Virus record (IMG/VR): IMGVR_UViG_3300030109_003848
Coordinates: 1 to 29,477 of that record
DNA from: a virus
Strand: one strand, 5' to 3'
DNA length: 29,477 nucleotides
The notes beneath the pieces are model-generated. The model had not been told where the DNA came from and ran no database searches. It was given only the letters and a program-made list of their open reading frames with translations. This document shows, in pieces, positions 71 through 28,430 of the stretch. Both the position numbers and the translations under genes were made by a program. Numbering within the stretch: the first letter of the stretch is position 1; every line of letters begins with the position of its first letter.

Positions 71-559
71 TTACTCGGCAGCTTGGGCCGTGTACTTGTC
101 CATGATGCCCTGCATCTTCTTTGCGGTCGGCCGCTTGAATGTAGTGGGCTTCTTGTTCGAGGCTGTGAACTCATCACCTGTACAGGCTTTGAATGCTGCT
201 TTCTGTGCGGTGATGTAGTCCTGAAGCAGATCGATCTCGCTGTCTATCGACTCGATCCGCTGGTCGATCCGCTCGGAAGCCAGATCGCTATTGTGCATGC
301 CGCCTCTGGCTGCACCGAACTTTGCGCAGATAATCACTAGCTTGTCGTCGCTGATCTGGTCAGCGCCTTCAAGCTGAATCTTATCGTCGATCAGTTGAAG
401 GATGTCCTTCTTCTTCATGCCGATGAGCCACTCCGCGTGGTCCACGCTCTTTCTGATGAGGTTCTTGGTGAGTGCTGTGGACGAGTATGAATTATTGCCG
501 TCCTTGGAAGGGAAGCTGGCTGCGTAGCCGTCGGTGAAGTGCTGTGTTGCGTTGCTCAT
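71..559 (-). CDS. Hypothetical protein, 162 aa
   Basis: No family recognised. The start MSNATQHF is chosen because GAGAGG lies 8 bases upstream of the ATG at 559; the open frame runs further upstream to position 1000, but that part is Pro/Ser/Arg-rich, lacks a good ribosome site and would cover the structured region. The protein has a Ser/Asn-rich N-terminus, a charged helical centre with coiled-coil character around residues 95-120 (IDQRIESIDSEIDLLQDYI) and a basic C-terminus (KKPTTFKRPTAKK). No helix-turn-helix, membrane segment or signal peptide is visible. It is the only minus-strand gene at this end, faces away from the late genes across a 402-base divergent gap and ends in a strong terminator. 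If the genome is circular it would be the first early gene, so a regulatory or host-takeover role is possible but unproven. Confidence 0.75.
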   Translation of the reverse strand: MSNATQHFTDGYAASFPSKDGNNSYSSTALTKNLIRKSVDHAEWLIGMKKKDILQLIDDKIQLEGADQISDDKLVIICAKFGAARGGMHNSDLASERIDQRIESIDSEIDLLQDYITAQKAAFKACTGDEFTASNKKPTTFKRPTAKKMQGIMDKYTAQAAE

Positions 560-591
560 GATAGAGTCCTCTCTCTCGATGTGGGACGGAC

Positions 592-789
592 TGTGCCGTC
601 GATAGGGGCAGGGAATGCACATCCGGATTGCAGGGCGCAACCCGCAACTCGAGCGCGAAGCGCGATTGCGCGGGCAGCGGGTTGCAGCGCCACCTAAGAC
701 AAGTGGCCTAGCCCTGCTAGGCCCCGTCTTGGCGCGGCCCTGCAAGCCGGATGGGCATAAGGAATGCCCAGACGGCACTGGACGGCACA
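592..789 (+). ncRNA. Highly structured candidate RNA, three-way junction (domain I)
   Basis: Nested inverted repeats too long and ordered for chance. A closing helix pairs 593-600 (GTGCCGTC) with 771-778, or alternatively with the near-tandem copy at 781-788. A 17-base helix pairs 620-636 with 737-753 with a single A-G mismatch (627/746). Inside it a perfect 9-bp helix pairs 637-645 with 677-685 and extends through 648-651/671-674 and 653-655/667-669. After one unpaired A (686), a third arm pairs 687-691 with 731-735 and 696-700 with 726-730, capped by a 7-bp hairpin 705-711/717-723. One G (736) separates this arm from the return strand. A small hairpin 754-758/764-768 follows. Two wobble pairs (U649-G673, G655-U667) exist only if the + strand is transcribed, which favours a plus-sense RNA. 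It lies between divergent genes, just before the small-terminase candidate. Function unknown. Alternatives are a DNA packaging or replication site, or a mobile element with terminal inverted repeats. Confidence 0.6.
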
Positions 790-809
790 CCGAGAGGGAG
801 GATGGCAGA

Positions 810-899
810 ATGACAAAACGCAGCACAGCACAAAGCGATGGCGAAGCAGTCAGGTTCCCGCAGGGCGGCCTGTGGGCGCTTTGTGCGTTGACAGCGTGA
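810..899 (+). CDS. Possible small ORF, 29 aa, in the divergent region
   Basis: ATG at 810 has a good ribosome-binding site (GGGAGGA, 7-base spacing) and the frame closes at TGA 897-899. The peptide begins MTKRSTAQSDGEAV and resembles no family I know. The ORF completely contains the 828-886 hairpin domain, an arrangement seen in leader peptides that control a downstream gene, here the small-terminase candidate at 962. It could equally be a chance ORF in GC-rich sequence; no homologue is recognised. Confidence 0.22.
   Translation: MTKRSTAQSDGEAVRFPQGGLWALCALTA
828..886 (+). ncRNA. Two-part hairpin upstream of terS (domain II)
   Basis: A perfect 10-bp helix pairs 828-837 (GCACAAAGCG) with 877-886, and an 8-bp helix pairs 857-864 with 869-876 around a 4-base loop. 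The second helix stacks directly on the first on its 3' side (876/877) and leaves a 19-base bulge, 838-856. One of its pairs is G860-U873, a wobble possible only in a plus-sense transcript, in agreement with domain I. The hairpin ends two bases before a consensus TTGACA box. It may be the 3' part of the same RNA as domain I or a control element for the late operon. Confidence 0.5.
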
Positions 900-916
900 T
901 CTGAACCGATGCAGAA
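888..916 (+). promoter_or_regulatory. Candidate sigma-70 promoter for the late operon
   Basis: A perfect -35 hexamer TTGACA lies at 888-893. At 16-18 base spacing the -10 candidates (TGCAGA or GCAGAA around 910-916) are poor, so the promoter is either weak, activator-dependent or has an alphaproteobacterial-style relaxed -10. It is correctly placed about 50 bases before the terS ribosome site. Confidence 0.3.
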
Positions 917-917
917 A

Positions 918-938
918 GGGGGGGAACACAAGGGGGGG
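918..938 (+). other. G-quadruplex-type double G7 tract
   Basis: Two runs of seven G (918-924 and 932-938) are separated by AACACAA. This fits the canonical intramolecular quadruplex pattern (GGG, loop 1, GGG, loop 7, GGG, loop 1, GGG). It lies 13 bases upstream of the terS Shine-Dalgarno (AAGGA, 951-955). Confidence 0.4.
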
Positions 939-961
939 TTCAACGATATGAAGGACGCAAG

Positions 962-1339
962 ATGAGCGACGTAGTGAAGCGTAAGGTGACCAGCCGACAA
1001 GCGGCCCTCGTAGATACGCTTGTAGCAAAGGGGTGCAGCATAACAGAGGCCGCTGCAGAGGCTGGCTACGCGAGCGGTGAGAGCGGGAGAGTCACAGCGA
1101 GCAAGGCTTTGCGGCTACCGCACGTTCAGCAGTACATGATTGAACGAGTGGGCGAGGCTCTCGGGCTGAACGCTACGGTAGCGGCAGCAAAGCTGCTGCA
1201 TCTGGCGAGGGGGGCTAAGAGTGAGTACGTGCAGCTAGAGGCGAGCAAGGATATCTTGGACCGCGCTGGCTTCAAGCCCCCTGATCGCCATATGCACTTG
1301 CACGCTGGTGACATATCTGTATCCATCGATCTAACCTAA
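962..1339 (+). CDS. terS: Terminase small subunit (candidate), 125 aa
   Basis: Small terminase subunits bind the packaging site and hand the DNA to the large subunit motor. The N-terminal half (TSRQAALVDTLVAKGCSITEAAAEAGY, about residues 10-37) has the 'T-x-x-Q ... hTEAAxxAGY' helix-turn-helix pattern typical of the family. The middle (LGLNATVAAAKLLHLARGA) and the ASKDILDRAGF stretch near residue 100 match the usual oligomerisation region. Length is normal for the family. AAGGA sits six bases before the ATG. The gene stands about 3 kb upstream of the large subunit instead of next to it. It is more GC-rich than the other structural genes and is flanked on both sides by strongly structured sequence, as expected if TerS recognises a nearby pac or cos site. 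Identification is by pattern only. Confidence 0.75.
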   Translation: MSDVVKRKVTSRQAALVDTLVAKGCSITEAAAEAGYASGESGRVTASKALRLPHVQQYMIERVGEALGLNATVAAAKLLHLARGAKSEYVQLEASKDILDRAGFKPPDRHMHLHAGDISVSIDLT

Positions 1340-28012: not shown

Positions 28013-28430
28013 TCTCCACTGATGCTTTGCTGTTGATAGATGTCACCAATTCATCTGAAGGAAGCCAACCATCCGGCACTCCCTTCTTAGAGTTATTGGT
28101 TATTGGTAGCTTTGTGTCGCACTGTGAGACAGGTGGTGTCTCACTCTGAGACACAGGTGTCTCACTCTGAGACAGCTTATCTCTTCGCATGGTATGAGCA
28201 ATGTAGTACGTTTTGCCTTGATCAAGTCGAGTGATAAAACCCTCCTCTTCAAGTTTGTTCAGCTTTCTTGCGACTGTTGCGCGGCTCATGCCTGTTCTAT
28301 GAGATAACGTGAACGTACTAGGCCAACACAAGGCTTTGTCGTTAGCATAATCACACAATGTCACAAGCAGCCACTTGGCGAGCGGATCATCGATGTCCGC
28401 TCTCATTGCATCTGCTATGTGATGAAACAT
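27780..28430 (-). CDS. Lambda-O-like replication initiator (winged helix)
   Basis: 216 aa. Residues about 1-70 form an HTH_36-type winged helix: DPLAKWLLVTLCDYANDKAL, CWPSTFTLSHRTGMSRATVA, RKLNKLEEEGFI. A flexible linker with SQSET repeats (about residues 92-106) follows, then a C-terminal block FRDYHRSKGNRFADINAAYR with NWVRRS that is typical of phage replication proteins. The linker DNA carries iterons, as in lambda O, so the protein probably binds the origin in its own gene. ATG 28430 is preferred to GTG 28439: it makes a TGATG junction and has GGTGG five bases upstream. Confidence 0.85.
   Translation of the reverse strand: MFHHIADAMRADIDDPLAKWLLVTLCDYANDKALCWPSTFTLSHRTGMSRATVARKLNKLEEEGFITRLDQGKTYYIAHTMRRDKLSQSETPVSQSETPPVSQCDTKLPITNNSKKGVPDGWLPSDELVTSINSKASVEIDHEHEAALFRDYHRSKGNRFADINAAYRNWVRRSLGWRKEKSSRPSTFSPRSASGNTQSDRFGAYLDSIADPKIQQ
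28081..28174. other. Predicted replication origin inside the initiator gene
   Basis: Three 17-base iterons (28115-28174) lie next to an AT-rich segment 28081-28114 with a repeated TTATTGG. In the direction of the gene the order is iterons then AT-rich DNA, the same as in lambda ori. No DnaA box was searched for systematically. Confidence 0.6.
28115..28174. repeat. Three 17-bp iterons
   Basis: Copies at 28115-28131 (TGTCGCACTGTGAGACA), 28137-28153 and 28158-28174 (both TGTCTCACTCTGAGACA). The first differs at two positions. Each identical copy is an inverted repeat TGTCTC-N5-GAGACA. Start-to-start spacing is 22 and 21 bases, two helical turns, so all face the same side of the DNA. Confidence 0.8.

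Follow-up and report, generated by a model that had tools for sequence, protein, structure and literature searches.

The window analysed here is the whole stretch of 29,477 nucleotides from the viral record IMGVR_UViG_3300030109_003848. Near its left end two genes, termed here gene A and terS, are read away from each other, and the region between them also carries a promoter and a pair of G-runs:

71-559, minus strand: gene A, a divergent open reading frame with a ribosome-binding site (RBS), 162 aa, mostly helical; start codon at 557-559
880-894, plus strand: -35 region of the late promoter, TTTGTGCGTTGACAG, with TTGACA at 888-893
918-938, plus strand: paired G-runs, GGGGGGGAACACAAGGGGGGG, near the expected late transcription start
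962-1339, plus strand: terS, terminase small subunit (phrog_2538, E 1.4e-9; phrog_51, E 5.7e-9)

Gene A is probably the first gene of a leftward early operon and occupies the same position in relatives. Its protein has no match in Pfam or PHROG, and family and structure searches returned nothing useful; an AlphaFold2 model predicts an all-helical protein (pLDDT 78). Among the early genes of the phage are Erf, an exonuclease, an O-like initiator and a resolvase. A partly palindromic 21-bp repeat occurs in about three copies inside the initiator gene, at 28114-28176, and by analogy with lambda these iteron-like repeats suggest a replication origin there, away from the fold-back described below. 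The phage carries an ordinary TerS/TerL pair matching PHROG terminase families. Between terS and terL, 1595-2104 codes for a protein with an Extensin-like C-terminal domain (peptidase M15-like), and a structured stretch directly follows terS (1336-1480; -67.2 kcal/mol, z -3.7).

The region between the two genes folds on itself. The features of this fold are:

385-957, plus strand: full potential fold-back, from the minimum free energy (MFE) structure of 381-960; outermost arms weakly supported
510-859, plus strand: well-supported fold-back, with the gene A start as left arm and the mirror as right arm
566-578, plus strand: strand over the gene A RBS, pairing with 791-803 of the mirror; relatives show double compensatory changes in this RBS helix
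585-600, plus strand: hairpin X-Y, just upstream of the gene A RBS, competing with helix Y-Z (593-600/771-778)
620-753, plus strand: core with a three-way junction, formed by closing helix 620-636/737-753 and arms 637-645/677-685 and 687-700/726-735
635-687, plus strand: loop-motif arm, GCGCAACCCGCAAC / CGGGCAGCGGGTTGCAG
about 786-859, plus strand: mirror, a non-coding inverted copy of the RBS, start and early codons of gene A, defined by pairing

An earlier, sequence-only reading had described a branched structure at 592-789. These 198 nt reach an MFE of -115.8 kcal/mol, with shuffles averaging -83.9 (z -6.8; 0 of 200 shuffles equal it). No other 250-nt stretch of the contig has a lower energy, and by z the region ranks second among 234 windows. 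All helices proposed in that reading recur in the MFE structure: the closing 17-base helix with one mismatch as 620-626/747-753 plus 628-636/737-745, the 9-bp arm at 637-645/677-685, the bulged arm as 687-692/730-735 plus 697-700/726-729 with a cap at 705-712/716-723, and the outer 8-bp helix at 593-600/771-778. Relative L002 keeps the core pairing despite an altered sequence. The three-way junction is real in the window but is a local variant, as the number of arms differs between lineages. Two G-U pairs had been taken to indicate a plus-sense RNA; plus-strand wobbles do exist (the one placed at 655/667 becomes 657/667 in the MFE structure), but the minus strand folds with nearly equal energy over 592-789 (-114.2 kcal/mol), and two pairs do not settle the sense.

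The limits of 593 and 778 assigned to the structure in the same reading proved too narrow: pairing runs outward to at least 510/859 and, more weakly, to 385/957. The 510-859 element is built from helices 510-523/846-859, 527-533/836-842, 539-553/817-831, 556-559/810-813 and 566-578/791-803. Its arm-to-arm duplexes have z-scores of -7.5 to -9.6, with energies better than 200 of 200 mononucleotide shuffles for every tested segment, while the outer arm duplex of 381-470 with 890-957 reaches z -4.3. This long imperfect stem takes in the RBS, the start codon and the first ~20 codons of gene A. Near the RBS two pairings exclude each other, the 585-600 hairpin and helix 593-600/771-778; a hairpin like X-Y is also present in relatives. 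A perfect 10-bp inverted repeat (828-837/877-886) would allow part of the mirror to pair with the upstream region of the late promoter instead of gene A.

Relatives were collected by TerS searches (80 loci per scan) and pattern scans, which left 201 terS-upstream regions after duplicate removal. Folds of 600 nt gave z < -4 in 50 of 70 non-redundant regions (12 shuffles each). Among non-redundant cores delimited by gene A, all 62 had z -3.5 or lower (median -6.9), a count that holds for a subset selected for having a long-range pair. A large group of phages that are uncultured and mostly marine carries the element at the same position, adjoining terS in the relatives examined. A cultured Pelagibacter phage, EXVC031P Hodr (TerS 56% identical to that of the window), has the same layout. 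Because the element sequences diverge so strongly, blastn aligns the element well with the closest relatives only.

Certain internal loops are kept within these changing stems. The loop motif of the window consists of GCGCAACCC with CGGGCAGNGNGTTG, and the CGGGCAGNGNGTTG half recurs in L002, L004, L375, L153 and Hodr, in plus orientation only. Another, motif III (CAACGTCCGT/CGCAACGGCC), is unchanged inside differing stems, even in phages with a TerS only 38% identical. Bacterial genomes yielded 26 matches to motif III, against a chance expectation of ~15 (20 fixed bases, 31 gap lengths, 257 Gb); none of the 26 had a terS match in the retrieved stretch, and these candidates were rejected. Loci L050, L069, L094 and their relatives carry tandem fold-backs, one with motif II at gene A and one with motif III beside the late promoter, which look as if they were modular domains.

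The pairing bears the marks of selection. Among near relatives, double changes that keep the pair account for 29% at paired sites on the gene A side and 43% in the core, against 2% in a control with the 3' partner shifted; only helices still paired to 70% or more in the relative were counted, a prefilter that lifts the real fraction somewhat. Without the prefilter, the compensatory fraction is 19-23% in the core, the RBS and the first 60 nt of gene A, then 6-7% at 60-180 nt and 1% at 180-260 nt into the gene. In gene A, third positions change half as often in codons 1-20 (0.09-0.10) as in the rest (about 0.21), and the drop is confined to these codons; in codons 1-20 of terS the rate is only slightly lower (0.18-0.20 vs about 0.23). 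In an aligned subclade with motif III, compensatory double changes affect 15 of 34 pairs around the invariant loop motif. The outer helix, which covaries, goes with the gene A start and tracks the gene A sequence across lineages. Relatives frequently lack the start codon in the mirror itself, having for example CTG or CCG there, so the mirror serves pairing rather than coding. We are confident that a selected fold-back including the gene A start exists, and the claim of an undescribed structured element holds, its pairing being conserved and under selection.

No sigma70-like promoter in about 3.7 kb is conserved except the late promoter, located 50-100 nt before terS and pointing right, which has a consensus -35 box and scores at least 9 in 55% of 128 relatives against a background of about 10%. 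Its -35 box is part of a near-palindrome, TTGT-N6-ACA(A), conserved beyond promoter needs (TTTGTGCGTTGACA); the near-palindrome at 880-894 is perhaps an operator. Exact matches to the paired G-runs downstream were found in 85 IMG/VR stretches, and the two run lengths agree within a phage (7/7, n=80; 6/6, n=19; 8/8, n=5; 5/5, n=5), very few being unequal. The window's GGGGGGGAACACAAGGGGGGG matches a G-quadruplex pattern with loops of 1-7-1 and is similar to R-loop-promoting G-clusters. No conserved leftward promoter was found in the same 3.7 kb, including the part right of the mirror, nor a conserved plus promoter inside gene A among relatives. Plus-strand sigma70-like sites scoring at least 9 are present in the first 200 nt of gene A in 29% of cases, vs 18-19% in controls. 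A seeming plus promoter at the gene A start codon was discarded as largely the complement of ATGTCAAA.

Several comparisons bear on which strand, and which molecule, is folded. Among the nearest relatives, G-U outnumbers A-C on the plus strand 142:67, part of which is explained by composition; a raw count of 147:53 was set aside in favour of matched controls because mismatch composition accounts for much of it. With shifted partners as control, the G-U:A-C ratio is 2.82 vs 1.75 on the gene A side (p 0.008) and 1.55 vs 1.24 in the core (p 0.18, not significant). Dinucleotide shuffles favour the plus strand in 62 of 73 elements (p 2.6e-10) and 47 of 62 cores (p 9e-6), although they do not remove arm-specific composition, and the A/C-rich gene A start may cause part of the excess on that side. 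G-U makes up 5.8% of core pairs, the hairpin loops of the element have no RNA-type tetraloop bias, and transversion-type and transition-type compensations stand at 72:67. Extra-stable DNA triloops (GCGAAGC), common by eye, are not enriched, C(GNA)G and its reverse complement numbering 13 to 12. With the wobble excess set against the few G-U pairs, the loop type and the compensation types, plus polarity is likely and an RNA form plausible, with folded DNA a fair alternative; the plus sense proposed in the sequence-only reading is thereby mildly favoured by the shuffle comparisons, not decided.

Any model has to account for the inclusion of the gene A start in the helix, and two RNA readings do so, a plus-strand antisense transcript and a minus-strand leader concealing its own RBS. 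Antisense stem-loops offer a model for such an arrangement. In RNA-OUT of IS10/Tn10, the 3' side of an antisense stem-loop mirrors the start of the target, and P22 sar and lambda OOP are antisense RNAs of phages. The present element resembles RNA-OUT in that a divergently read gene has its translation start complemented by one side of the stem and mirrored by the other: 510-578 overlaps the RBS, start and early codons of gene A, pairs with 791-859, and covaries. We tentatively hypothesize, at well below even chances, that a plus-sense antisense stem-loop of the RNA-OUT layout shuts off gene A. A plus-sense RNA would start inside gene A, be transcribed toward terS and fold into the long stem. 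Its 5' side would be antisense to the gene A translation start, and the 3' side would mirror that start for this very reason. By pairing with gene A mRNA the transcript would block translation, switching the leftward early operon off as the rightward late operon turns on. The conserved internal-loop motifs may be protein landing sites or points at which the stem begins to open, and the choice between X-Y and Y-Z pairing may set an open or closed stem. The transcript, its pairing in trans and the timing are what we infer from the sequences.

The antisense reading draws support from the extent of covariation, which spans the gene A RBS and the initial 60 nt of the gene and is much lower farther in, and from the compensatory fractions (29% and 43% vs 2%) together with suppressed synonymous change in gene A codons 1-20. 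The strand comparisons lean to plus (62/73, 47/62; gene A side p 0.008), and there is a slight excess of plus sigma70-like sites in the gene A start. Against it stand the lack of a conserved plus promoter inside gene A, the 5.8% share of G-U core pairs without RNA-type tetraloops, and the 72:67 ratio of compensations, unlike evolution via G-U; the core plus excess has p 0.18, and A/C-richness of the gene A start may inflate the gene A side. RNA-OUT is also far smaller: the element is several times larger and branched, has conserved internal-loop motifs and reaches ~60 nt into the coding region, and its promoter and RNA we only infer here.

The main rival is a folded DNA element, a hairpin or cruciform or a replicating plus single strand, bound by protein at its internal loops and controlling replication, divergent transcription or packaging. 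Both strands fold well, G-U pairs are few, RNA loop bias is absent, compensations show no preference for a G-U route, and invariant internal-loop motifs sit in fixed orientation within variable stems, all as folded DNA would have it. We rate this possibility only slightly below the antisense reading; it leaves the inclusion of the gene A RBS and first 20 codons unexplained, plus polarity is not expected of a two-stranded cruciform, and the iteron-like repeats in the O-like initiator gene suggest an origin elsewhere.

The stem could also belong to a long 5' leader of the leftward gene A mRNA, starting right of the mirror, so that the mirror hides the RBS and start in cis and X-Y is the open state. 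Some leftward transcription has to take place, the translation start of gene A is precisely what the helix covers, and the exclusive pairings (585-600 vs 593-600/771-778) lie just upstream of the RBS; but the wobble bias favours the plus strand, which is why we prefer the antisense reading over a minus-strand leader, and no conserved leftward promoter lies right of the mirror. We regard the leader as improbable.

More improbable still is a palindrome with little or no function, maintained by the replication machinery through template switching in the hairpin, which copies arm onto arm. Such copying would let the mirror track gene A across lineages, as it does, and fits the lack of a G-U route preference among the compensations. 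However, 119 of 132 runs of compensation comprise a single pair, and such isolated changes make copying in tracts unlikely; the gene A start shows reduced synonymous change, the loop motifs are invariant, and the element is present in nearly all relatives.

The packaging RNA or folded pac/cos site suggested in the sequence-only reading can draw on the great stability of the structure and on terS adjoining it in the relatives examined, yet it is highly improbable, since covariation follows gene A, the TerS/TerL genes are of the ordinary kind, and the late promoter separates terS from the supported element, downstream of which it lies, so that a terS transcript from it would exclude the element. 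A transposable MITE is not supported, given the single copy in the contig and the lack of any DNA match in the phage and plasmid collections.

The element has no counterpart in the resources we searched. Rfam gave no match at gathering score to known families (tmRNA, RNase P, 6S, GOLLD and others), in keeping with the earlier reading; the best hit at a lax threshold had E 0.23, far below its gathering score. No tRNA or tmRNA was detected, nucleotide searches with the element gave no match in phage and plasmid collections, and a description of it was not found in the open-access literature searched. It is undescribed as well as widespread, and it has gone without annotation because sequence searches miss a constant shape with changing letters.

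Among other known systems, Frpo and ssi are single-stranded DNA promoters of conjugative plasmids, the Frpo stem containing -35/-10 boxes and acting on entering single-stranded DNA (PMC11541004, Nature 2024). The element shares with them a large intergenic one-strand fold-back beside early genes, mimicking a double strand. Unlike in Frpo, promoter scores for -35/-10 boxes in the element stems were at or below background on both strands. We also know of no single-stranded DNA entry stage for such a phage, a further difference from Frpo. The pRNA of phi29, which serves the gp16 ATPase motor, is likewise a phage-encoded branched structure near packaging functions; the phage here has TerS/TerL, and its structure goes with gene A. 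GOLLD, ROOL, IMES and other large metagenomic structured RNAs are sequence-conserved families whose function is open. They too are large structured elements of phages and metagenomes, whereas the present element has little conserved sequence beyond short loop motifs and no Rfam match.

Well over a hundred distinct phage contigs examined and one cultured Pelagibacter phage carry this element without a family or annotation. We speculate, while considering it unlikely in this full form, that a fast-evolving fold-back of several hundred bases, defined not by sequence but by shape, position and a few invariant internal-loop motifs, keeps re-mirroring the gene A start and sets the early/late switch in a large group of marine phages through a folded single strand, be it RNA or DNA. 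As an antisense stem-loop, the element would be a variation on a known type of RNA; as a shape-defined switch or a DNA site, it would be of a new kind. As DNA, the element would be a viral site read by its structure, and to our knowledge no site of that kind has been described for such phages. If it is an early/late switch, it would make infection timing directly testable in a phage group that is widespread and poorly understood.
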